From an uncultured Chitinophagales bacterium (GTDB lineage: Bacteria; Bacteroidota; Bacteroidia; Chitinophagales; JAHDHT01): 50,795 nt of DNA. Both the position numbers and the translations under genes were made by a program. The notes beneath the pieces are model-generated. The model ran no database searches, had not been told where the DNA came from, and saw only the letters and a list, made by a program, of their open reading frames with translations. Of this stretch, positions 2,948 through 47,505 are shown piece after piece; position 1 is the first letter of the stretch, and each line of letters begins with the position of its first letter. The stretch covers positions 1-50,795 of the forward strand of contig CALHDG010000098.1 of the NCBI GenBank assembly GCA_938023075.1, in the 5' to 3' direction.

Positions 2948-3107
2948 AAGGAACGAGAAAAAATAAATTTATTATCTGACTTTTCCATTTTCCGATATAC
3001 TTTTTTGAAAAGCCTTGCGTTAGCCCCACTAAGCCTACGTTTTTCAACTCGTTTATCAAAAAATGGCTTTGTTTGAGTTGGGAAATTTATTTTCTCTTCA
3101 TTTTTAA
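2948..3107. repeat. MITE-like palindrome family B, copy 1
   Basis: About 160 bp, bounded by AAGGAACGAGAAAAAATAAA on the left and the matching inverted end TTTATTTTCTCTTCATTTTT on the right. Between the ends the element is itself an imperfect palindrome around GTTAGCCCCACTAAG. This is the most diverged of the four full copies (others 4476-4633, 26390-26549, 32713-32870). It sits directly beside family A copy 2. Confidence 0.7.
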
Positions 3108-3176: not shown

Positions 3177-3312
3177 TACGAAGAACCGAAGTTGGCAAAC
3201 TAGCCCCGATTGCAGCGGTTATGCTGCCTGAAGCGTTGATTATGAAGCAGAGCCGCAGCATTTGAGCGGAAAGCGGGACTGCCCTGTTTTTAATGGACAA
3301 GGGTATCGCTTC
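3177..3312 (-). repeat. REP-like repeat family A, copy 2
   Basis: Reverse-orientation copy carrying TAGCCCCGATTGCAGCGGTT, a GCTGC..GCAGC stem region, GCATTTGAGCGGAAAGCGGG and the terminal GTATCGCTTC followed by an A tract. It ends 14 bp before the stop codon of the aminopeptidase gene. Translation of this copy gives a meaningless peptide sharing segments with that of copy 1 because the DNA repeats. Confidence 0.75.
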
Positions 3313-3326
3313 AAAAAAAAAATTAT

Positions 3327-4475: not shown

Positions 4476-4633
4476 AGGAATGATAAAAAAATAAATTTAT
4501 ATTCTGACGTTGCAATTCTCCGATATACTTCGTTGAAAAGCCTCGTGTTAGCCCCACTAAGACTGCGTTTTTCAACTCGTCTATCAAAAATTTGCTTTAT
4601 CATAATTGGTCAATTTATTTTATCATCATTCCT
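4476..4633. repeat. MITE-like palindrome family B, copy 2
   Basis: 158 bp with ends AGGAATGATAAAAAAATAAA and the matching inverted end ATTTATTTTATCATCATTCC. The interior reads GATATACTTCGTTGAAAAGC, a central GTTAGCCCCACTAAG, and GTTTTTCAACTCGTCTATCA, the two arms being reverse complements apart from mismatches. It lies between the 3' end of the DUF4286 gene and the 5' end of the aminopeptidase gene. Confidence 0.8.
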
Positions 4634-8508: not shown

Positions 8509-8823
8509 GTGTAGAATCTTTATTGAAGTATGTGTATGTTGTGCTAACCACAAACCATACCAATCTCATAATAATTTTATTTTTTTATGAAATTTTATTT
8601 TAATATTTGTTGAGCTTAAAACATTTAGTAGTTAACTAAATAAATTTAAATTGGTAGTTTCGGATTAATACCTGTTAAATTATTTGGATATATAAATTTT
8701 ACTAACTACTTCTATCATTTTGTAATATTTTAGGCTTAAAATAGAGCAACTAGCCAACCACCTGAAATCATGCAAATGGCATACACATCTATCAATATTT
8801 CCCTTCTATCCACTAAACTATTA

Positions 8824-8831
8824 TATATTTG
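8824..8831 (+). promoter_or_regulatory. TAnnTTTG promoter element
   Basis: TATATTTG matches the Bacteroidota -7 consensus TAnnTTTG and lies 34 bp before the ATG at 8866, fitting a short 5' leader for the large T9SS protein. The remaining divergent region 8509-8823 is AT-rich and shows no other feature. Confidence 0.45.
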
Positions 8832-8865
8832 CACTTTTATAGTTAAGGTTAACCTAAATCATTTT

Positions 8866-11784
8866 ATGAAACAATATATACTTTGGTCAATTTTATTACT
8901 TATCTGCTCAATTTCAACTAAAAATAGCCTTGCCCAATGTAACATTAATTTTTGTGATGAAGCACCCGTTTTAACTGCTGATGCACCATACTTTAATGCA
9001 GAATCTTCCAGTATTGAAATCGACAATGTCGCGTTTGGAAAGTTTGGTTGCGATAATTCATCATATAGTTCTGGTATTGCTGTTTATTTATATCAGATTA
9101 TGCCCAATGGCGAGCGTATGTTTCAATGTACCGTTTTAAACGAGCCACCTAATAATACAGTAGGCATTATTGCCTTAGGCTTGGGTCAGGTTAATCTGTG
9201 TGATCAACCTGTTTTTGAATTTGGTTCCATTTCTGCTCAACCAGAAATTGGATTTGTTGCTTGCGATGGAGCGACCTACGAACTTGAAGCAGTATTATTT
9301 GTTTCTGAAACAACAGTGGATATAAACTTGGTGGTTTATGACCAAATACCCGAAACTCAATATATTATCAATAATCTTGGTACTGTAAATGTTCATATTA
9401 CAGATGTTTTTCCGGGCAATGGGCAACCGTTAACAACAGCAAAATTGTCAGAATCTTCTACCGGAGCAACCGGTACAATAGAACTCAATTGCGGAGAACC
9501 CATTCAAGTGGAGGTAGAAGCCTTAAGTCGTTTGTCTAACTGTCCTGATTTAGCAGATATTTCAACTGGAATTCCCTCAGAAATGACCAATGAGTTTTAT
9601 TATTCTATTGATGGAGCAGAACCTGTTATTCTGCGCGACCCTTCGAGTGGTGCAGCAGGAGGGCAGTTAACCGGCAGTGTAGATGGGGGAACTTGTTATG
9701 GCGGTATTTTAGGGGAAAGAATCATTGAGTTTGAAGAATTAGAAGGACTTTGTGAAGGAAGTTCTATTGTTTTTACGTTAACTACAACCGACTTATTTAC
9801 TAATCAAACCGTCGATGATCAAATTACCTTTGTTTATTCTGGTGCAGGTTGCGATGCCTGTCCAGGGGTTGAAGGTTGTATAGATGATACGGCTTGTAAT
9901 TTTAATCCTGATGCTACCCTAGATGATGGTACTTGTACTTATCCGGAAACTAATTTTGATTGTGCAGGTAATTGTGTAGTTGCAGTTGATTGTGCAGGAA
10001 CTTGCGGCGGAACGGCAACTGAAGATTGCGAAAATGTATGTGGCGGTTCAGCAATTGCGGGAACGACTTGTGATGACGGCGACCCAATTACATCAGATGA
10101 TGTGTATGATAACAGTTGTAATTGTGTAGGAGAAGCCACACCAGGTTGTATAGATAATACGGCTTGTAATTATAATCCTGATGCTACCCTAGATGATGGT
10201 ACTTGTACTTATCCGGAAACTAATTTTGATTGTGCAGGTAATTGTGTAGTTGCAGTTGATTGTGCAGGAACTTGCGGCGGAACGGCAACTGAAGATTGCG
10301 AAGGTACTTGTGGCGGTTCAGCTCTTCCAGGTACAACTTGTACTGATATTAATGGAGAGATTAGTGTTTATTCCGAGAGTTGTATTTGTATAGAAGTAGA
10401 CCCAGCACCCGGTTGTACCGATGAAATGGCTTGTAATACCGGTTCAGCAGAAGATTGCCAATACCCACAGCCGGGATTTGACTGTACTGGTAATTGTATT
10501 GTTAATGAAGATTGCTTAGGTGTATGCGGCGGCACAACCATACCAGGTGCTATTTGTGATGATGGCGATCCGAACACCTTTAATGATGTATATAATTCGA
10601 ATTGTGAATGTGCAGGTTCTGTTGATGCAGGAGAATGTGCCAGTGTTGGGGGTTCCCTTGGTTTTACCGAAGGAGGAGCTTACTCCAGTATGAATTATGT
10701 TTGTAATGGTTCAAGAGTAGTAGTTGATGCAGATGATTTTATTTTACTGCCAGGGCAAGTAGTTTGTTATGTATTTCATGAAGATGGCGAAGTAAATTCA
10801 GCCACTCCTTTACAAAACGTTTTGCAATATGGCAGCTTTTTTACTAATAACGAAGTGGGCAAAAAAGAAATTTATGTTACTGCTTATGGAGCAAAAAAAT
10901 TGAGCGACGGTAGTCCTGATTTTACAGACCCTTGCCTTACTTACAGTAATACCTTAACTATTATTTTGCTAAAACCTGTTTCTATAATTGTTGATGAGGA
11001 ATGCTCTTCTGACAGTGGTGAATTTACCTATACCATAAACGTTACTGGAGGCTTGCCAGAATGTGTACCAAGTTCAACTTTCGAAATTTCCAGTGAGTAT
11101 TTTGTTGGAGCCTTATCGCATGGGCAGAGTCAATCGGTTGGGCCTATTGCTGATGCTGAAAACTATACCGTTACTGCAACAGATGAAAACGGTTGTACCT
11201 TTAGCGTAAGTAAATCAGTAAACTGTTCTAAATTACCTATCACGTTAATTGAGTTTACCGGTACCGTTAAAGCCATTGGTAATAGCTTAAAGTGGGTAAC
11301 GGCTTCAGAAATTGAAAATGATTATTTCACCTTACAATACTCTACAAATGGACAAGATTTTGAAAACATTGCCACCATTAAAGGTAAGGGAACCACTTCG
11401 CTTACCTCAACCTATGAGTTTTTACATAGAGAGGCATTAAACGGAATCGGTTATTACCGTTTGTGGCAAACTGATTTTGACGGAACAACAACAGAAGCCA
11501 AAACCATCAGCTTAAATAGAGGAGAATTGAGTCAGCAGATTATCGACATTTATCCTATTCCAGTTCACGAAACCTTAAACATTATTTATCAGCAGATGGA
11601 CCATGCACCTTTTACCTTGATGATTTACAATGCCACCGGTGAGGTTGTATATGAAATGAACCAACACGGTGTTAGGGGCAACAATGTAATTGAATTAAAT
11701 GTAGAAGCCTTTACATCAGGTATGTACATGGCACATATTTTATCTAAGGAAACCATTAGTACTTCCAAATTTATTGTGGAGTAG
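8866..11784 (+). CDS. Large T9SS-secreted cysteine-rich protein
   Basis: About 972 residues. MKQYILWSILLLICSISTKNSLAQ is a clear signal peptide, which is why I start at 8866 rather than at an upstream in-frame ATG at 8770. After a ~290-residue beta-rich region comes a cysteine-rich array of the form GCIDDTACNFNPDATLDDGTC / DCAGTCGGTATEDC, repeated with variations over roughly residues 340-590. This calcium-loop-like repeat is common in Bacteroidota adhesins and secreted enzymes. The final ~80 residues (IDIYPIPVHETLNII, YNATGEVVYEM, FTSGMYMAHI, STSKFIVE) form a type A T9SS sorting domain, so the protein is moved across the outer membrane and attached to or released from the surface. No catalytic domain recognised. 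Confidence 0.9.
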   Translation: MKQYILWSILLLICSISTKNSLAQCNINFCDEAPVLTADAPYFNAESSSIEIDNVAFGKFGCDNSSYSSGIAVYLYQIMPNGERMFQCTVLNEPPNNTVGIIALGLGQVNLCDQPVFEFGSISAQPEIGFVACDGATYELEAVLFVSETTVDINLVVYDQIPETQYIINNLGTVNVHITDVFPGNGQPLTTAKLSESSTGATGTIELNCGEPIQVEVEALSRLSNCPDLADISTGIPSEMTNEFYYSIDGAEPVILRDPSSGAAGGQLTGSVDGGTCYGGILGERIIEFEELEGLCEGSSIVFTLTTTDLFTNQTVDDQITFVYSGAGCDACPGVEGCIDDTACNFNPDATLDDGTCTYPETNFDCAGNCVVAVDCAGTCGGTATEDCENVCGGSAIAGTTCDDGDPITSDDVYDNSCNCVGEATPGCIDNTACNYNPDATLDDGTCTYPETNFDCAGNCVVAVDCAGTCGGTATEDCEGTCGGSALPGTTCTDINGEISVYSESCICIEVDPAPGCTDEMACNTGSAEDCQYPQPGFDCTGNCIVNEDCLGVCGGTTIPGAICDDGDPNTFNDVYNSNCECAGSVDAGECASVGGSLGFTEGGAYSSMNYVCNGSRVVVDADDFILLPGQVVCYVFHEDGEVNSATPLQNVLQYGSFFTNNEVGKKEIYVTAYGAKKLSDGSPDFTDPCLTYSNTLTIILLKPVSIIVDEECSSDSGEFTYTINVTGGLPECVPSSTFEISSEYFVGALSHGQSQSVGPIADAENYTVTATDENGCTFSVSKSVNCSKLPITLIEFTGTVKAIGNSLKWVTASEIENDYFTLQYSTNGQDFENIATIKGKGTTSLTSTYEFLHREALNGIGYYRLWQTDFDGTTTEAKTISLNRGELSQQIIDIYPIPVHETLNIIYQQMDHAPFTLMIYNATGEVVYEMNQHGVRGNNVIELNVEAFTSGMYMAHILSKETISTSKFIVE
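9874..10032 (+). repeat. 159-bp direct repeat, unit 1
   Basis: Encodes one GCIDDTACNFNPD...TEDCE block. It matches 10144-10302 at all but two positions (GAT/AAT and TTT/TAT codons), at a period of 270 bp, i.e. 90 codons. Confidence 0.9.
10144..10302 (+). repeat. 159-bp direct repeat, unit 2
   Basis: Second unit of the near-identical in-frame duplication. The 111 bp between the units are much less similar to the corresponding sequence after unit 2, so the duplication is recent or kept uniform by gene conversion. Confidence 0.9.
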
Positions 11785-14260: not shown

Positions 14261-14331
14261 GATTTGGCTTTCTAACCAAGTATAGCAGAAAATTACAAAG
14301 TCAGAATTTAAATTTATTTTATACTCATTCT
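14261..14331 (-). repeat. Half copy of palindrome family B
   Basis: GGCTTTCTAACCAAGTATAG, ACAAAGTCAGAATTTAAATT and TATTTTATACTCATTCTTG align with one arm of the full element at 26390-26549 (segment ~26481-26549). The other arm is missing. Confidence 0.55.
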
Positions 14332-14428
14332 TGATCAAAAACAAATCTAAGTTTATGAAAATGTACACAAAAATTAATAGCACAAAGAAAATCCATTATC
14401 GTTAACTTGTTTCTTTAAACTAATAAAA

Positions 14429-16588: not shown

Positions 16589-18382
16589 TTATTGACAAAT
16601 ATCAAACACCGCTGTTGCTGATTTTTCAACACTACCTTTAATATCGATTATTTCTTTCGCTTGATACTGACCGCTTATTGCCCCATTAGAGGTTACTAAA
16701 TAGCTTGGGCAAGGGTTATCACAATCAACATTTCCGTTTATATTGGATAGTAAAGGCACCGTTACCTCAAAAATACTTTTTCTGTTGAGTTGATCAGTTA
16801 TAGTTACTACATACTCACCAGAAGGCTGGTTATAAATAGCATTGATTAAATTATATGAAGTGCTTTCATCAATAAACAAACCGTTGGCATTTTCCCATAC
16901 AAAGTTAAATGGAGGAGTTCCATCTGTTAAAATTACTACCTGCATTGAACCGGAAGCGGATCTATTACAAAGTTCAGGAACAATACTAAGCTCTGCCAAC
17001 AAGCTGTTAACTTGCAGTATCGCAATATCGTGGTCATCTTCATCGTCAGGCTGAATGGAGTTGGGTCCTTTGCCGTTAATATTGTCATCTATTATATTTG
17101 TTTCATTATTTATATTGTCAGGATTTGAATCCCAATCGGGTAAGAGGATTGGATTACCCCAAACATCTGTAATATCACGATTAAAGGAAGATTCGATTTC
17201 TGCGGTATTAGTTATACTTGCTCCCGTAAAATTTGAATCGACAATATAGCTTACTGGAATTTTAACTGAAGTATTTGGTTCAATGAGTTGACTCCCGGTA
17301 TAGGTAGCCGTTCCATTTCCTAAATCTAACCAACTTGTATCGGATAAAATTAAACCATTGGGTATATAATTGGTAATGCTAATATCCGTATTTAAAAATT
17401 TACCTTGGTTATAAATGGTGATTAAAAAAGAAACGGTTTCACCAATATTGACTGGTTGTTGTGTATTTGGCTTTACTTCCATCTTTAAGGCAAGATCGAC
17501 ATAAGCGGTAAAACAATCAAAGGCTTCGAAGTCTGTATATTGGTTATTTTGATCAATAAAAGTTAATATTTCTTTAGTGGCTGCTCGTATATCAATAAAA
17601 ATAAAAGTATTAATGTCTATTGGAGTAGCACCATTATTGCCAATAGTGCCGTACAATTCCCCAAGGTAACTAATCCCTAAGCCTTGAACATCATTACCGG
17701 GTGAAGAATAAATTACTGCTTCAAGTTGACCATTCGCAGGGTTTAATTCGGTTATCGTGACTCTTGAATTACCCTGGTTTTGAGTAGCAAAAAGCTGTCC
17801 AGTATAGGAATTGTAGGCAATATCAGGAGCATCGTATACATCTGCACCTATTTCTCCATCAAAAATTTCAGGAATAATACTATAATCTACTGGAATATTA
17901 TTTGCATTAAGCATCGCTCCGGGTATTACCTTTCCGGTAGCGACATCAATTTGAAAAAGTAGATCGTTTGTTCCGGTACCAAAGCCTTTTACATTGTGTG
18001 TCGCGTACATAATTTCATTAATAGGGTCGTAGGTCAATCCTTTAACGCTATTTAACTCGATAAACCCATTCTCACCATTACCTATACCCACTTCGCCAAT
18101 TGGAGTAAATAAAGCCGTTTTCACATCAATGGTACCAAAGGTTCCAGCATCTACTGCATACATAATGTCGTTAACCGGATCGAAAGCAATGGCTTCTATA
18201 CTGGTGCCGCCTGTTACCCCTACTTCATACCATCTATCGATTGTAGGATCGAAAACAAACAACACATTAGGTAGCTCGCCAGATGAAACGGAATAGCAAG
18301 GAAAGTCTAACAGAGCTTGGCTGAAGGTTGATAGTACACAACAACAAAGGGAAAAAGTTAAGATAAATTTGTAAAAATTCAT
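16589..18382 (-). CDS. Secreted propeller/DUF11/SprB-repeat surface protein
   Basis: 597 residues. Signal peptide MNFYKFILTFSLCCCVLSTFSQA. Residues ~30-295 form a beta-propeller-like region (IEAIAFDPVNDIMYAVDAGTFGTID, VKGLTYDPINEIMYATH, GTNDLLFQIDVATGKVIPGA), which also matches the module of the neighbouring 1853-residue protein. A DUF11 domain follows at ~297-405 (VNIGETVSFLITIYNQGKF, IPNGLILSD, ITNTAEIESSF), then a DWDSNPDNINNETN / DEDDHDIAILQV acidic segment and one SprB-like Ig repeat (GTPPFNFVWENANG...YVVTITDQ). The end (ISGQYQAKEIIDIKGSVEKS, AVFDICQ) resembles the first strands of the coathanger-stack C-terminal domain of Bacteroidota. Second gene of a likely operon, 45 bp behind the larger paralogue. 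Probably cell-surface; no enzyme motif. Confidence 0.88.
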   Translation of the reverse strand: MNFYKFILTFSLCCCVLSTFSQALLDFPCYSVSSGELPNVLFVFDPTIDRWYEVGVTGGTSIEAIAFDPVNDIMYAVDAGTFGTIDVKTALFTPIGEVGIGNGENGFIELNSVKGLTYDPINEIMYATHNVKGFGTGTNDLLFQIDVATGKVIPGAMLNANNIPVDYSIIPEIFDGEIGADVYDAPDIAYNSYTGQLFATQNQGNSRVTITELNPANGQLEAVIYSSPGNDVQGLGISYLGELYGTIGNNGATPIDINTFIFIDIRAATKEILTFIDQNNQYTDFEAFDCFTAYVDLALKMEVKPNTQQPVNIGETVSFLITIYNQGKFLNTDISITNYIPNGLILSDTSWLDLGNGTATYTGSQLIEPNTSVKIPVSYIVDSNFTGASITNTAEIESSFNRDITDVWGNPILLPDWDSNPDNINNETNIIDDNINGKGPNSIQPDDEDDHDIAILQVNSLLAELSIVPELCNRSASGSMQVVILTDGTPPFNFVWENANGLFIDESTSYNLINAIYNQPSGEYVVTITDQLNRKSIFEVTVPLLSNINGNVDCDNPCPSYLVTSNGAISGQYQAKEIIDIKGSVEKSATAVFDICQ

Positions 18383-18427
18383 GATGATTTATTTTTATAT
18401 GATTAATTTTTGTGAAAACCTGAATGA

Positions 18428-21400
18428 TTATTTACAAATATTAAAGGTGGCAGTTTTTGATTGCTTTACACTACCCTGAATTTCGATTGCTTGTTGGGCT
18501 TGATGATAGCCGCTGATCTCCTCGGATGGTAATACCAAATACTCCGGGCAAGATAATGCTCCAACTTGGATTACAGCAATATCGTGATCATCTTCATCTT
18601 GGTTGGCATTGAGTCCGCCTCCATTCATTTCATTGTCTACAACATTGGTTTCATTGTTTTCATTATCAGGCTGAGAATCCCAATCGGGTAAGGCTGTTGG
18701 ATTTCCACGAAGGTCAGTTGGATAATTGTAGAGGCTAAGAACATCAATTATATCTGGCAGGAATGAGGAAGATATTTCAACGGCATTGGTTAAGGTTTGC
18801 CCTTCATAACCTGAATCTACTGTATAGGTAATTTTAATAGTATGATCTTCACCGGGTTGTAATATATCTTCAAAAGTGTAGGTTGCTTTTCCATCGCCGG
18901 AATCCATCCAATTGCTATCTGCTAAAGTTAAACCTTTGGGTATATAATTGGTGATGCTTATGTTGTTATTAGGAAAATCACCTTGATTGAAAATAGTTAA
19001 CAGAAAGGTAATTTCACCACCGGTATTGACCAACTGATTAGATTCTGTTTCTAAAAGTAATGCCAAATCATTATAAGCGGTAAAGCAATCGAAGGCTTCA
19101 AAGTCAACTTCCCTGCCTGACGGATCAATGAAACTTAATGTTGTTGTAGAACTTGCTTGCAAATCAATATGAATGAAAGTATTGCTATTTAGCTGTGTGC
19201 TTCCATTATCACCCGTAGTACCATACAACTCCCCCAAATAAGTAAAACCTATGCCTTCCATATCATCATCCGGCACATCATAAATTATGGATACCACATC
19301 ACCACTAGTTGGATCTAATTCGGTAAGTATGCCAGGACCATCTTGATTTTGCATGGCGAAAAGCTGTCCGGTATAAGAATTATAAGCAATGTCGTCAACG
19401 TCATAAAGATCAAATTTTTCACCTCTTTTAAAAGTTGAATCGAATACCTCTGGAATAATGGCATAATCTACAGGATTTCCAGTTCTGGAATCTATCATAG
19501 CGCCAGGTATAAGTTTTCCGGTAGCTACATCAATTTGAAAAAGCAGGTCGTTTGTTCCGGGACCAAAACCTCCAACTCGATGTGTACCATACATAATTTG
19601 ATTAACCGGATCGAAGGTTAAACCATCTACATCATCTAACTCAATTAAGCCTGCTTCACCAATGCCCGAACCTATTTCGCCTATTGGCGTAAACAAAGCC
19701 GTAGTTGCATCAATGGTTCCGAATATTCCATCATCAGTTGCATAAATAATCCCGGTAATTGGATCGGTAGCGATGGCTTCAATATGAGTGCCTCCAGTAA
19801 CCCCAACTTCCGTCCAATTACCGGTTGAAGGATTATATTCAAACAATACATTGGGTGCGGCATTATCTTCTGAAACGGTATAGCATTTAAATTTAGTTAG
19901 GGTGTTATAAGTTGGTGGAACTGCTGGTTCTGCAATTTCAATGGTGGCAATATCGTGGTCATCTTCATCTTGGTTGGCATTGGGTCCGCTGCCGTTTATT
20001 GCATTGTCGCTCACATTGGTTTCATTATTTTCATCATCCGGTTTTGAATCTAAATCAGGTAATGGGTCGGTATAGAAATTGCCTTCTTCATCAATAATAA
20101 TCGGGCTAAATGAAGCGGATATTTCAACTGCATTGGTAAGGGTTTGTCCTTCAAAACCTTCTGCCACCTTAAAAGAAATATTGACAGTGGCTGTTGCGCC
20201 AGGTTCAAGTGTTTCATTCAGAATATAAGTTGCTTTGCCATTGCCAATATCCGTCCAAAGCGCATCTGAAAGTTCTAAACCATTGGGTATATAATTAGTA
20301 AGGCTAATATCTGAACTAATGAAATCGCCTTGATTGAAAATGGTTATTACAAAATCAATAGTTTGTCCGGCAAGTGCAGGTTGCTCTGTGCTTTCCTCCA
20401 CCTCTATTTTTAAAGCCAGATCATTAAAAGCGGTAAAACAATCAAAGGCTTCAAAATCTTTATATTGATTGGTTGGGTCAATTGAATTTAATTGAGTTGT
20501 TGTGCCCATTTTTAAATTGATACTAAAAAAAGCATTGGAAGTCAATAGAGTGCTTCCATAACTACCCGTTGTAGCATACAATTTACCCAAAGAATTAAAA
20601 CCTAGACCTTCAATATCATCATTGTATGATGCAAAATTCACTGCTATTACTTGACCGTATAATGGATCTAATTGACTGATTGCACCAAGTCCAATGGCAA
20701 GAAGTTCTCTCGTATAAACATTGTAAGCAATATCACCTATGTCGTATAAATCACCACCAAAATCTCCATCAAAAATTTCAGGAATCACCCCATAGTCTAC
20801 TGGATTATTGTTTGCATCAAGCATCGCTCCCGGTATTACCTTTCCGGTAGCTACATCAATTTGAAAGAGCAGATCATTTGTTCCAGGACCAATTCCTCCA
20901 ACTCGATGCGTTGCATACATAATTTGATTAACCGGATCGTAAGTTAAACCGTCTACATCGTCTAATTCAATTACCCCAGCATCGCCATTACCGGAACCTA
21001 CCTCACCAATTGGAGTGAAAAGTGCAGTGCTGGCATCAATGGTTCCGAATGTTCCATCATCAGTAGCATAAATAATCCCGGTAATTGGATCGGTAGCGAT
21101 GGCTTCAATATGAGTGCCTCCGGTAACCCCAACTTCTGTCCATTTGCCGGTAAACGCATCAAATTCAAACAATACATTGGGGGCGGCATTATCTTCTGAA
21201 ACCGTATAGCAATTAAATTTAGTTAGCGTGTTATATGGTGGAGGCGTTATTTCTCCTATTTTAATCGTGGCTATATCGTGATCGTCTTCATCTTGGTTGC
21301 GAATGCTATTGGGGCCGCCTCCATTAATATCATTATCAGTTACTAGAAATTCCACATTTTGGTCATCTGGAAAAGAATCCCAATCTGGCAATGGGATAGG

Positions 21401-23989
21401 GTTGCCAAATGGATCAACTATTAGAGGATTAAATGAGGATGCTATTTCGGCAGTGTTGGTTATGCTTTCTTCTTCAAAATTTGCATCAACAATAAAGCCA
21501 ATGGATACTTGAAAAGAAGTGCCCGGCTCAATTGATTTATTGTAGGTATAAATGGCAGTTCCGTTACCCAAGTCCTCCCAACTGGAATCTGATAAAATTA
21601 GACCTGTTGGGATATAATTTACAATGCTAATATCATTATTGGCAAAGTCACCCTGGTTAAAAACTTCTATTATAAAAGTAATTTCATCACCTGCTTTTAC
21701 AGGTTGTTGAATTGAAGGATCAATCTCCATTTTTAAAGCTAAATCGTTATAAGCCGTAAAACAATCAAAGGCTTCAAAATCTACTTGTTCAGCAGGAGGT
21801 ATTCCATCATCCGGATCTATTTTTCCTAATGAAATAGTTTCTGCAATGGCTAAATCAATTTTTATGAAATTATTGCTATACTTTTCAGTAAAGCCCATAT
21901 CTCCCTGAGTGGCATAGAGCTCGCCCAAACTTGTAAAGCCAAATCCTTCTAAATCATTTTGATTGCGCATGTCATAAATTACGGATTCAATTTCACCCGT
22001 TTTCAGATTTAATTCAGTTATAGTAGCATCGGGTAAACCCAGTTGATTTTGAATAGCAAATAGCTGACCAGTATAGGGGTTATAAGCAATATCGTCCACA
22101 TCGTAATTCTCACAAAATCCTGCTTTTTTTAAAGTGCAATTGAATACTTCGGGAATAATTACATAATCTATAGGGCTATCGGTTTCCGGATCTTGCATGG
22201 CAACGGGTATAATTTTCCCCGTAGAAACATCAATTTGAAAAAACACATCATTAGTGCCGGGTCCTTCGCCTTTAATTCGATGAATGGCATACATTATTTC
22301 ATTGACCGGATCGTAGGTTAAACCCTTTATATTATCTAATTGAATAATTCCATATGCTCCGCCACCATAACCAATAGTTCCAAAGGGCGTAAATTTACCG
22401 GTATGGCTGTCGATGATACCAAAAGTACCACCATCAACGGCATAAATAATATCGTTGACGGGATCGGTAGCGATGGCTTCAATAGAAGTTCCTCCGGTTA
22501 TGCCTACTGCTGTCCACTTTTCCGATTCCGGGTTAAATTCAAATAAAATATTCGGCTTATTTTCTTCTGATGAAACGGTATAGCAAGGTGAAAAAATTAA
22601 ATTGTTGGCTCTCTGCACTTCAAACATCACTAGGTCATGATCGTCTTCGTCTTCATTAACTGTAGCACCTCCGCCATTAATTATATTGTTAATTACATTG
22701 GTTTCATTATTTAGATCATCGTAATTTGAATCGATATCCGATAAGGGAACATACTTACCAATCTCATTAGTAATGTTATGATTATAAGTTAGTAAGATTT
22801 CACTCTGTAGAGTCATTATGCCTTTAAAATCATCATTTAGCTCAACACTAAAAGAAGTTGTAAAATTTTCTCCCGGCTCTATCGTATTTTCAAAGCTACC
22901 ATATATTCGATCACCAAAACGAATCCAATTGCTTTGATCAATACCTAAGTTCAACACCTCAAGATTATCCTTATTAATTTTAACAGATAGTCTTACCTCG
23001 TTCACTTTTAATTCGCCCTGATTAAAAACGGTGATGTCAAAAGAAACGACTGATCCTTGTGTAAAAGGATTTTGTTGATCTGGACTTAAATCAATACGTA
23101 AAGCTAAATCGTTGTTTAATGGAACTATGTCAACACCGGTAACAGCTAAGCTTTGAAAGTTTAGTGTTACATCATCAATATTGTTGATAATTATTTCTCT
23201 TGCGGTTTCTACATTTATTTGCACTAAAGTATTAGGCTTGTTGCTATCGTTATTTGCAATGGTTGCGTATAAATCACCTGCTTCATCAAAGGCTATGTCA
23301 CTAATTGCAGATAAGGAGTTGTACAAAGTTTCTTCAATCTCGCCTGTTCGCTTGTTTAATTTGGTTATGATGCTGTACCCATTTTGTACGTGCAAGGCTA
23401 TCAAATTGTATGTTATGGGATCAAAGGCTAATCCAACAATATCTTTAACTGAGGTAGCCTCTCTTAAAATTTCGGGTATCGGTACATAATCGAAACGCCG
23501 GTCTTTAAAATCAAAAACCGCGTCGCGAACAATAATGCCTGTTGCCGGATCAATTTTAAAAAATAAATCGTTAGTGCCTTCTCCTGTGCCGGGTATACTG
23601 TGTATGGCAAACAATAAGTTAGAAAACGGATCGTAGGTTAAGGCTTCTATGTTGTTTAAGGTAATTTCGCCATAAGCGCCTTCGCCCAAGTTTGTAAAAC
23701 CGTAGGCACTAAATTGACCGGTTTGCTGATTAATGGTGCCAAGTATCCCATTGTCTACGCCGTATAGGGTATTATTGTCATTGTTAAAAGCTAAGGCTTT
23801 TAGGTTGGTAGTGCCGGTTTCGCCAACTACCGTCCACAAATTGGTTGAGGCATCAATTTTGTAGAGGACACTCGGTGTTGAGGTGGAAACAGAAAAAAAC
23901 GTACTTTCTAAAAAATTAAATGGAGTTGAAGCTCTTAAAATTGAGGAGCAAAATAGTAATATGGTGGTTAAATATATGATGGTTTTCAT
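18428..23989 (-). CDS. Giant surface protein of four propeller+DUF11 modules
   Basis: 1853 residues. A signal peptide (MKTIIYLTTILLFCSSILRA) is followed by four tandem modules of ~440 residues, each a propeller-like part (CYTVSEDNAAPNVLFEF, IEAIATDPITGIIYATDDG, GTNDLLFQIDVATGK), a DUF11 domain (FVITIFNQGDF, TNYIPNGL) and an acidic linker DEDDHDIA.I. Module 1 is the most diverged; modules 3 and 4 are nearly identical over long stretches, with matching sequence offset by 1326 bp, exactly 442 codons. The C-terminus (SGYHQAQQAIEIQGSVKQSK, TATFNICK) matches that of the downstream protein. Likely an exported adhesin or matrix protein. The absence of a canonical type A T9SS tail suggests another signal or anchoring mode. 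Confidence 0.88.
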   Translation of the reverse strand: MKTIIYLTTILLFCSSILRASTPFNFLESTFFSVSTSTPSVLYKIDASTNLWTVVGETGTTNLKALAFNNDNNTLYGVDNGILGTINQQTGQFSAYGFTNLGEGAYGEITLNNIEALTYDPFSNLLFAIHSIPGTGEGTNDLFFKIDPATGIIVRDAVFDFKDRRFDYVPIPEILREATSVKDIVGLAFDPITYNLIALHVQNGYSIITKLNKRTGEIEETLYNSLSAISDIAFDEAGDLYATIANNDSNKPNTLVQINVETAREIIINNIDDVTLNFQSLAVTGVDIVPLNNDLALRIDLSPDQQNPFTQGSVVSFDITVFNQGELKVNEVRLSVKINKDNLEVLNLGIDQSNWIRFGDRIYGSFENTIEPGENFTTSFSVELNDDFKGIMTLQSEILLTYNHNITNEIGKYVPLSDIDSNYDDLNNETNVINNIINGGGATVNEDEDDHDLVMFEVQRANNLIFSPCYTVSSEENKPNILFEFNPESEKWTAVGITGGTSIEAIATDPVNDIIYAVDGGTFGIIDSHTGKFTPFGTIGYGGGAYGIIQLDNIKGLTYDPVNEIMYAIHRIKGEGPGTNDVFFQIDVSTGKIIPVAMQDPETDSPIDYVIIPEVFNCTLKKAGFCENYDVDDIAYNPYTGQLFAIQNQLGLPDATITELNLKTGEIESVIYDMRNQNDLEGFGFTSLGELYATQGDMGFTEKYSNNFIKIDLAIAETISLGKIDPDDGIPPAEQVDFEAFDCFTAYNDLALKMEIDPSIQQPVKAGDEITFIIEVFNQGDFANNDISIVNYIPTGLILSDSSWEDLGNGTAIYTYNKSIEPGTSFQVSIGFIVDANFEEESITNTAEIASSFNPLIVDPFGNPIPLPDWDSFPDDQNVEFLVTDNDINGGGPNSIRNQDEDDHDIATIKIGEITPPPYNTLTKFNCYTVSEDNAAPNVLFEFDAFTGKWTEVGVTGGTHIEAIATDPITGIIYATDDGTFGTIDASTALFTPIGEVGSGNGDAGVIELDDVDGLTYDPVNQIMYATHRVGGIGPGTNDLLFQIDVATGKVIPGAMLDANNNPVDYGVIPEIFDGDFGGDLYDIGDIAYNVYTRELLAIGLGAISQLDPLYGQVIAVNFASYNDDIEGLGFNSLGKLYATTGSYGSTLLTSNAFFSINLKMGTTTQLNSIDPTNQYKDFEAFDCFTAFNDLALKIEVEESTEQPALAGQTIDFVITIFNQGDFISSDISLTNYIPNGLELSDALWTDIGNGKATYILNETLEPGATATVNISFKVAEGFEGQTLTNAVEISASFSPIIIDEEGNFYTDPLPDLDSKPDDENNETNVSDNAINGSGPNANQDEDDHDIATIEIAEPAVPPTYNTLTKFKCYTVSEDNAAPNVLFEYNPSTGNWTEVGVTGGTHIEAIATDPITGIIYATDDGIFGTIDATTALFTPIGEIGSGIGEAGLIELDDVDGLTFDPVNQIMYGTHRVGGFGPGTNDLLFQIDVATGKLIPGAMIDSRTGNPVDYAIIPEVFDSTFKRGEKFDLYDVDDIAYNSYTGQLFAMQNQDGPGILTELDPTSGDVVSIIYDVPDDDMEGIGFTYLGELYGTTGDNGSTQLNSNTFIHIDLQASSTTTLSFIDPSGREVDFEAFDCFTAYNDLALLLETESNQLVNTGGEITFLLTIFNQGDFPNNNISITNYIPKGLTLADSNWMDSGDGKATYTFEDILQPGEDHTIKITYTVDSGYEGQTLTNAVEISSSFLPDIIDVLSLYNYPTDLRGNPTALPDWDSQPDNENNETNVVDNEMNGGGLNANQDEDDHDIAVIQVGALSCPEYLVLPSEEISGYHQAQQAIEIQGSVKQSKTATFNICK

Positions 23990-26389: not shown

Positions 26390-26549
26390 AGAAATGATGA
26401 GAAAATAAATTTACCATTTATGATAAAACAATTTTTTGATAGGCGAAGCGAAAAACGCAGGCTTAGTAGGTAACCAAGAAAAGGCTTTTCAACGAAGTAT
26501 ATCAAAAAATTGTAAAGTCAGAATGTAAATTTATTTTTTTCTCATTCCC
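26390..26549. repeat. MITE-like palindrome family B, copy 3
   Basis: 160 bp in the orientation opposite to copies 2 and 4: GAAATGATGAGAAAATAAAT at the left end, GATAGGCGAAGCGAAAAACG, central CTTAGTAGG, CTTTTCAACGAAGTATATCA, and TTTATTTTTTTCTCATTCCC at the right end. It fills most of the divergent gap between the sulfotransferase-like gene and the CDP-alcohol phosphatidyltransferase gene. Confidence 0.8.
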
Positions 26550-28994: not shown

Positions 28995-29125
28995 GAAACG
29001 AAACATCTTGATTATTTAAAAACGGGCAGCCTGCTATCCACTCAAATGCTGCGGCTACGCTTCAAAAGCAAACGCTTCAGGCAGCATAACCGCTCCTATC
29101 AGGGTTAAACTTCCACCTTCGCTCT
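28995..29125 (+). repeat. REP-like repeat family A, copy 3 (diverged)
   Basis: GAAACGAAAC, CACTCAAATGCTGCGGCTAC, a stem CTGCGG..CAGGCAGCATAACCGCT and CAGGGTTAAACTTCC follow the order of the other copies. The CCCGCTTTCCG block is replaced by CAGCCTGCTATC. Confidence 0.6.
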
Positions 29126-32452: not shown

Positions 32453-32521
32453 ATGGAGGATTGATTGAATTCATGATTTAAATATAAAATATTTTTTAAA
32501 TGTTTTGCAAAGATTGCTACA

Positions 32522-32660
32522 ACAATAAATTTACAATACTGTCCTTAGCATTTTTCTACATAATTTGTTGAAAAGCCTCGTTTGAAAGTTTATTGGGCAT
32601 TTGCATAGTGGCATTGTATGACAAACTCGTCCTAACAAGACTTTAAAACAATTTATTTTG
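32522..32660. repeat. Degenerate family B-like copy
   Basis: AATAAATTTACAATACTG, TTGTTGAAAAGCCTCGT, ACAAACTCGTCCTAACAAGA and TTTAAAACAATTTATTTTG are in the order of the family B element, but the ends and centre are eroded. It lies 50 bp before the intact copy 4. Confidence 0.4.
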
Positions 32661-32712
32661 ATTGCTTACCTTATGGGAGCTTGTTGAAGCAATCATTCAA
32701 CCTTTTATGCTA

Positions 32713-32870
32713 AGGAATGAGAAAAAAATAAATTTACATTCTGACTTTACAATTTTTCGATATACTTCGTTGAACAGCCTCGTCTTAGCCCCCACTAAGA
32801 CTGCGCTTTTCGCCTCGTCTATCAAAAAATTGTTTTATCATTAATGGAAATTTATTTTCTCATCATTCCT
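32713..32870. repeat. MITE-like palindrome family B, copy 4
   Basis: 158 bp with ends AGGAATGAGAAAAAAATAAA and TTTATTTTCTCATCATTCCT (inverted). The arms ACAATTTTTCGATATACTTC.. and ..GTCTATCAAAAAATTGT meet at CTTAGCCCCCACTAAG. It lies 62 bp upstream of the collagen-like gene. Confidence 0.8.
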
Positions 32871-32932
32871 AATAGGCGGAAACCGAAAAGCCAAAACAGA
32901 GTAGGTGTAAATTTTTAAAAAAAATATATAAA

Positions 32933-33442
32933 ATGAAACGTTTGCTTTTAACTTTTACTTTGGGTTTTTTTACCCTTTTTATCAGCGCACAAACTGCGGG
33001 CGAATTTGATGGTCAGGTGACCATCAAAAATATGACTGTTGGTGAATACTTTATTGTTACAGCTGATGAAAATGGTGTTTTGCATTTATCTGAGCTGAAA
33101 TCCTTAGATGTAAATATCCCGGGTCCGCCAGGTCCGCCAGGACAAAGTGGCTTAAGAGGGGCAACAGGAGCTACTGGACAACCTGGTCCTCCAGGACCAC
33201 CTGGCGAAGCGGACAACCTTGGTAACCATTTCGCTGAACGGCAATTAAACATGGCTATGAAAAGAATAATTAATGTATCTGCTCCTTTTAACCCAAATGA
33301 TGCGGTCAACAAAGCTTATGTGGATGGGTTGCAATTCGGAGCTAATAAAACTTCTAATGAGTTGGGTGTAATCATTGATGAGTTGAGAACAGAAATTGCA
33401 ACACTCAAAGCGCGTATCCAAACCTTAGAAATCAATAAATAA
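32933..33442 (+). CDS. Secreted protein with collagen-like triple-helix stretch
   Basis: 169 residues. Signal peptide MKRLLLTFTLGFFTLFISAQ. A short head (residues 21-62) is followed by ten uninterrupted Gly-X-Y triplets, GPPGPPGQSGLRGATGATGQ then PGPPGPPGEA (residues ~63-93). The proline is mostly at X and Y, as needed for a bacterial collagen triple helix. After it comes MKRIINVSAPFNPNDAVNKAYVDG, a motif otherwise common in trimeric phage-type tail fibres, and a final heptad-like coiled coil (LGVIIDELRTEIATLKARIQTLEINK). The whole is a small trimeric fibre: head, collagen stalk, coiled-coil trimeriser. Partner unknown. Confidence 0.85.
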   Translation: MKRLLLTFTLGFFTLFISAQTAGEFDGQVTIKNMTVGEYFIVTADENGVLHLSELKSLDVNIPGPPGPPGQSGLRGATGATGQPGPPGPPGEADNLGNHFAERQLNMAMKRIINVSAPFNPNDAVNKAYVDGLQFGANKTSNELGVIIDELRTEIATLKARIQTLEINK

Positions 33443-33786: not shown

Positions 33787-33921
33787 ACGAAAAACCGAAG
33801 CTGTTAATTTAGCCCCGATTGCAGTGGTTATGCCTTGTGCAGCATAGCTTTTGAAGCGTTGGCAAGGCATTTGAGCGGAAAGCGGGACCCGCCTTATTGT
33901 AATGTCATAAGGTTTCGCTTC
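33787..33921 (-). repeat. REP-like repeat family A, copy 4
   Basis: TAGCCCCGATTGCAGTGGTT, a GCCTTG..CAAGGC stem region, GCATTTGAGCGGAAAGCGGG and GGTTTCGCTTC near the right end, all on the minus-strand orientation of the family. It ends 70 bp before the next gene. Confidence 0.75.
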
Positions 33922-33990
33922 TAAAAAAATAAATAATAATTGTCATTACAATTTAACACAAGTGCAGTCTAACATAGTAATTATACAAGT

Positions 33991-35151: not shown

Positions 35152-35464
35152 AACAATTACCATTTAAATCAAAAGGTTTGTGCCCATATTTGATCTTTAC
35201 AATTGGGTATACTACAAGTGCCTGAAAAGGTTGCGATGCGCTTAAATTTTTTAGTAATTTTAACAGTGTTTTGCTAAATCTAATTGCTTAAAGTCATTTA
35301 TACTTGTTCAGGTTCAATTTTGGAATTTTTATATGAGTATTTTCTCATCATTCCTTAAGCGATTTAAAAATCTTAAAATAAGCAACAATAGTTACTTTCT
35401 TAATTATTAGTATAATCTTGTATGTGGTTATCATCATTAAATCAATGAAACAAAATATTTTATA
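35152..35464. other. Noncoding stretch with repeat fragments
   Basis: Carries TATACTTGTTCAGGTTCAAT (near 35300) and TATTTTCTCATCATTCCT (35337-35354), the latter being just the end of a family B element. A closed 34-codon minus-strand frame ending at 35178 has no recognisable similarity. No gene called. Confidence 0.4.
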
Positions 35465-47337: not shown

Positions 47338-47371
47338 TTGATAAATGTTTACCATCTTTTCTTTTTTTTCA

Positions 47372-47505
47372 GAAGCGAAACAGTTGGCCACGTAGAAAGG
47401 GTAGTCCTGCTTTCCGTTCAAATACTGCGGCTATGCTTCATGCCTGCGCTTCAGGCAGTATAACCACTGCAATCAGGGCTAATTTAAAGGCCTCCGTTTC
47501 TCGCA
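47372..47505 (+). repeat. REP-like repeat family A, copy 5
   Basis: GAAGCGAAAC, GTCCTGCTTTCCGTTCAAAT, a stem ACTGCGGC..GCTTCAGGCAGT, ATAACCACTGCAATCAGGGC and CTCCGTTTCTCG follow the family order. It lies between convergent genes, 35 bp after the nitronate monooxygenase gene. Confidence 0.75.

Follow-up and report, generated by a model that had tools for sequence, protein, structure and literature searches.

A palindromic repeat of about 158 bp at 32713–32870 of a 50,795-nt stretch of contig CALHDG010000098.1, from an uncultured Chitinophagales bacterium, raises the question of whether it belongs to a family of mobile elements and, if so, whether its interior matters in addition to its ends. 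A sequence-only reading of the window (i.e., the whole stretch analyzed) had described a MITE-like palindrome with four full copies, and we found these copies where that reading placed them, at 158 to 160 bp, in both orientations, with inverted ends and a palindromic interior (Table 1). The half copy (14261–14331), end fragment (35337–35354), and degenerate copy (32522–32660) that it listed are all real as well. The TA target duplication that it considered possible, in contrast, proved to be a 3-bp TWA duplication, which sets the element proper at 32714–32869 (156 bp).

Table 1. Copies of the repeat and its hairpin core in the window
Feature	Position	Strand	Remarks
Full copy, subfamily A, element proper GGAATG...CATTCC (156 bp)	32714..32869	+	TAA flanks at 32711-32713 and 32870-32872
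Hairpin core of the 32714 copy: ACTTCGTTGAACAGCCTCGTC, tip stem, CTGCGCTTTTCGCCTCGTC	32764..32826	+	Conserved
Full copy, diverged	2950..3104	+	TAA at 2947-2949 and 3105-3107; pairing in alignment A1
Full copy, subfamily A	4477..4632	+	Flanks AAA/TAA, a decayed duplication
Full copy, opposite orientation	26390..26549	-	Flanks TTG/TAG, decayed
Half copy: only left arm and left half of core	14261..14332	-	
Degenerate copy, GCTACA-like end type, central part replaced	32510..32671	+	
End fragment only	35337..35354	-	

The source genome is a 6.12-Mb draft in 288 contigs, and a search of all of it returned 313 matches to the end motif (3 for the reversed control) and 197 to the core (2 for the reversed control), numbers that exclude chance. 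The element is present in ~200 copies that make up roughly 0.5% of the genome, and its consensus occurs throughout, not only at the places already seen in the window. At least three subfamilies were distinguished, namely A (158 bp), B (159 bp, AGGAATAATTCA), and C (161 bp, AGGAATGCTACA), and a further set with ATACCAAATTGACC ends stands apart from these. Among the fetched copies, identity to the nearest neighbor had a median of 95% and reached 98–99%, indicating that some of the spreading, at least, happened recently. The earlier statement that all copies are intergenic holds for most of them but not for all: of 103 copies in the source genome, 13 overlap ORFs of ≥90 aa under a mechanical ORF call, several of which are probably spurious. 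Contigs C9, C113, C168, and C202 of genome G000 start or stop at or inside an element; the repeat thus probably breaks assemblies, so that its copy number is underestimated.

The flanks of these copies bear directly on mobility. Identical 3-mers flanked 66 of 96 own-genome copies (32 TTA and 27 TAA, i.e., TWA on both sides in 59 of the 96), compared with identical 2-mers in only 7 and identical 4-mers in only 2, and mixed TTA/TAA flanks occurred 3 times. The target site is usually CTWAG, with a weak preference for C at −4 and G at +4. Identical 3-bp flanks were also present in three sets from Saprospiraceae and relatives (55/66, 8/9, and 14/15). When the flanks of the copies were aligned, as the sequence-only reading had proposed, they were unrelated, with no common sequence beyond the TWA site and no long shared homology. 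A nested pair (L050) holds a C-type element in the center of a B element, and excising the 157-bp inner copy together with one TAA gives back a 159-bp B element with 156/159 identities; an empty site restored intact indicates true insertions. Segmental duplication or recombination, which would spread the repeat without transposition, is contradicted by this intact empty site as well as by the unrelated flanks and target duplications; nothing was found in its support, and we rejected it as having almost no probability. A preference of nested insertions for the hairpin tip was likewise discarded, since it is explained by the CTWAG sites located there and the cases are too few.

Taken with its length of 156 bp (below ~500 bp), its lack of a transposase gene, and its TIRs (GGAATG...CATTCC and longer), the dispersed copies, unrelated flanks, consistent duplication, and empty site bear out the MITE reading. 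We confirm that the repeat is a real non-coding mobile element, a MITE, that transposes with a 3-bp duplication. The imperfect hairpin with conserved loops is also what one would see in REP or attC sites, and an HUH (REP/RAYT-like) or integron-like enzyme could in principle mobilize a folded single-stranded DNA element. It is established, however, that neither HUH nor integron recombination yields a 3-bp duplication combined with TIRs, making such a mover highly improbable.

Which transposase moves the element? TNA duplications are reported to be typical of the IS1031 group of IS5, and one such IS has the end GAACCTGTCTAGTATCT (PMC12016507). The TWA duplication of the element is of this 3-bp TNA type, and the ends TTA-GAACCTGTTCAAAA and TAA-GAGCCTGTTTAAA of some relatives resemble the IS1031-group end, although the GGAATG ends do not. 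Based on the duplication type and on the end resemblance in some relatives, we infer that an IS5-type (IS1031-like) DDE transposase is the most likely partner. The sequence-only reading had seen no transposase with matching ends in the window, and the full-length IS that it called for was not found in a wider search either. Specifically, the source genome contains DDE_Tnp_1 and DDE_Tnp_4 matches without element ends and no DDE_Tnp_1_2; a DDE_Tnp_1 search of seven core-bearing genomes and an end-pattern search in three related genomes yielded no autonomous partner; and three copy-bearing genomes (G436, G405, and G337) have zero DDE_Tnp_1 matches, G436 with 57 end matches. In the fetched loci, inverted end pairs separated by 0.5 to 3 kb flank ORFs in which reading of the sequence alone revealed no transposase. 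Since no transposase with element ends was found, the partner is missing, lost, or of a type other than the families searched, a result that refers to these draft genomes and families and leaves room for an autonomous partner.

The core extends well beyond this genome. A scan of genome contigs with the core, in which the source genome itself may be left out, recovered, among the matches listed, more than 100 stretches in Saprospiraceae, other Chitinophagales, and one bin labeled Flammeovirgaceae, with arms and ends that differ widely (AGTAACAG, AGTAATGA, AGTAAAGAGG, AGTAATTC, CTTAGTAGTMAGTCAAG, TTAGACTTGTT, AAGTAGTTCCCG, and ATACCAAAT). An 84-position covariance model matched 32 of 395 sampled Bacteroidia genomes from many families, often in several copies each, at a threshold of E ≤ 1e-5; the short calibration makes these E-values rough, and the strict filters make 32/395 a lower bound. 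Most of the class-wide matches inspected by eye had inverted ends and duplications on both sides. TTA/TAA duplications accompany the ends TACCAAAT, GGGTCT, GGCATT, GAGGCTGTTC, and GAGCCTGTTTAAA, and CTAG, the target type of the IS5 subgroup, is duplicated beside TGTCGCAA-like ends in another branch, with possible TTAA duplications elsewhere. Viral contigs and a plasmid collection gave no matches to the element. We found no description of the core in the literature searched, where matches to its sequence strings led to papers about an unrelated virus, and to our knowledge it is not known from IS of the IS5/IS1031 group. The new part is a conserved, covarying hairpin core that is found across Bacteroidia and joined to different ends, and we regard these elements as a MITE superfamily whose structured core is conserved.

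The core is an imperfect hairpin of ~84 nt with four helical parts, the outer two of which were joined as one helix by the tool. In an alignment of 38 representatives below about 82% identity (A1), 85.9% of cells were paired, compared with 65.0% after shuffling and at most 49% after sliding, and both sides had changed in 23 of 26 pairs. The covariation score was 0.486 in A1 (shuffled: 0.141, SD 0.012; slid: at most 0.113), where relatedness inflates such scores and the shuffle count is not a probability, so that the argument rests on how wide the gap is and on the slid control. Among 30 class-wide copies it was 0.660 (shuffled: 0.170, SD 0.013); these copies stood outside model building but were aligned to the model, which biases them toward it, although the slid controls do not rise. 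The sequence of the two internal loops (GCCTCG/CCTACG and ACTTCG/GCCTCG) is best kept in Saprospiraceae-type copies and looser class-wide. Together with the recurrence of the core beside quite different ends, these results suggest that the hairpin is important in its own right and is not something left over by chance from a deletion. The sequence-only reading had noticed the palindromic interior correctly, but it missed both the class-wide covarying core with its different ends and a pairing constraint unlike that of a single RNA strand.

Either strand of a palindrome folds, and one selected RNA strand should tolerate G-U pairs on that strand. In A1, the 15 firmest pairs comprised 566 cells, 525 of them Watson-Crick; sense-strand wobbles numbered 11 and antisense-strand wobbles 9, and wobble was similarly low class-wide, save at one tip pair. 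Structured RNAs, by comparison, commonly hold a sizeable share of G-U pairs. Near-strict Watson-Crick changes with no consistent strand bias point to a constraint on both strands, i.e., on DNA or on RNA made in both orientations. We infer that the constraint acts on folded DNA or on both strands and not on one RNA strand, with a single sense-strand exception: one tip-stem pair reads as a sense-strand G-T in 11 of 28 class-wide copies and in 6 of the 38 A1 copies, and never as the opposite wobble. A fold of the sense strand would permit this pattern, which counts against the folded-DNA reading. As single-stranded DNA, both strands fold with z about −7.5. An RNA-only structure with a G-U bias was rejected: although the fold energy favors the minus strand, symmetric counting revealed no general wobble bias; the energy asymmetry probably comes from the purine-rich loops.

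The two-stranded constraint could also arise if the hairpin acts within mRNAs, in either orientation, as an RNA stabilizer or an RNase III-type processing site like that of Correia elements, because insertions in both orientations would require both strands to fold. Stable folds on both strands and the sense G-T at the tip are consistent with this, as is the RNase III processing documented for Correia elements (PMC10969869). Moreover, close own-genome copies between co-directional genes (L001–L057, L214–L233, and L294–L333) had a 33:9 orientation ratio in which the antisense strand is the transcribed one, a hint that transcripts are affected. This bias, strong in the first set, was not replicated, however, being 7:4 in an independent replication subset and absent from other genomes (20:20). 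Furthermore, G-U is favored on neither strand overall, the loops are rich in pyrimidines on one strand but in purines on the other, which would present one RNA-reading factor with different signals, the elements match nothing in Rfam at the gathering score, and no intrinsic terminator (a GC stem followed directly by a T run) is predicted over the 32714 copy. An action through RNA seems distinctly unlikely to us.

A different explanation is that this is an ordinary MITE whose core serves as a double-stranded binding site for a transposase or a bending protein, and in which mutation, through hairpin-templated correction as the DNA replicates, maintains the complementarity of the arms in place of selection. 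The strict Watson-Crick changes and few intermediates fit templated correction, and the boxes ACTTCG, GCCTCG, CCTACG, and GCCTCG lie next to A and T tracts and nearly repeat one another in direct orientation. Several copies in several genomes (L169, L180, L200, L201, and L224) have lost the center between two GCCTCG repeats, which is what slippage stimulated by a DNA hairpin would produce. Templated correction should, however, sometimes mend the loops, and the second internal loop was repaired to full complementarity in 0 of 294 cores; simple arm-to-arm correction is thus not the whole story, although selection on the loops could explain the same count. Overall, we regard this explanation as rather unlikely.

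We give an even chance to the reading in which these MITEs are moved in trans by an IS5-kind transposase and their core works as folded DNA, the latter role being putative and itself evenly balanced. According to this proposal, non-autonomous elements of ~156 bp would be cut and pasted in trans by a DDE transposase (IS5 kind, IS1031-like) that recognizes the terminal repeats and duplicates TWA. The element would act as a folded DNA hairpin or cruciform in which the arms pair and the ends are brought together, and the two conserved loops (GCCTCG/CCTACG and ACTTCG/GCCTCG) would be offered for recognition by the protein of the transposase complex or by one from the host. Selection acting on the fold would keep the arms complementary while the helix sequence changes, and the fold may let one core serve the ends of different IS5 subgroups. 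A bolder extension, which we consider less probable, is that a single DNA-hairpin core is a module that spread through Bacteroidia by taking the ends of several IS5 subgroups (TNA, CTAG, and perhaps TTAA), its fold, recognized as DNA, making these transposase parasites successful.

Several known systems share part of this description. REP/RAYT elements and attC sites work as hairpins of folded DNA whose unpaired features are conserved, the very way proposed here, but the HUH or tyrosine enzymes that move or recombine them leave no fixed 3-bp duplication. The ERIC and Correia/NEMIS elements found in Proteobacteria are likewise short, palindromic, mostly intergenic, geneless, and present in high copy number, and Correia-type hairpins affect transcripts (PMC10969869); the present element differs from them in phylum and probably in sequence, in its 3-bp TWA duplication, and in its covarying core with many ends. 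With IS of the IS5 (IS1031) group and the MITEs derived from them, it has the TNA duplication in common and, in some relatives, the similar GAACCTGTTCAAAA and GAGCCTGTTTAAA ends (PMC12016507), whereas it carries no transposase gene and no autonomous copy was found. Within Bacteroidota, MITECca01 of Cardinium is a short non-autonomous element with 169 copies in one genome (PMC9769881); that element is about 240 bp long, derives from IS982, and occurs in one strain with its parent present, in contrast to the 156 bp, class-wide core, and unfound parent of the family described here.

The usual view of bacterial MITEs is that they are remnants of deletions and that nothing but their ends is important, whereas a class-wide core, compensatory helix changes, and unrelated ends imply an interior under selection. 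If pairing is needed as DNA, the family would offer a direct test of whether secondary structure helps short transposons persist. The covariance model can also be used to annotate many of the unlabeled repeats that break Bacteroidota assemblies.

Other features of the window lie close to the copies or are repetitive themselves. An Rfam DUF805b RNA (RF02914, 43.5 bits) at 32873–32907 (+) begins 3 bases past the element and is located upstream of the gene at 32933. Within two adjacent large ORFs, blocks of 60 to 300 nt are repeated at a spacing of about 1.3 to 1.6 kb (16589–23989), and the ORF at 8770–11784, which bears a Por secretion tail, contains a 204-nt direct repeat that is 93% identical (9873–10346). 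A second, unrelated repeat of ~144 nt (ACGAAGAACCGAAG...GAGCGGAAAGCGGGAC...) is present at 1209–1352 (−), 3178–3321 (+), 29016–29104 (−), 33787–33929 (+), and 47362–47503 (−). It has dozens of matches in 0.57 Mb of the source genome and none in Rfam, and appears to form a separate, abundant intergenic family.
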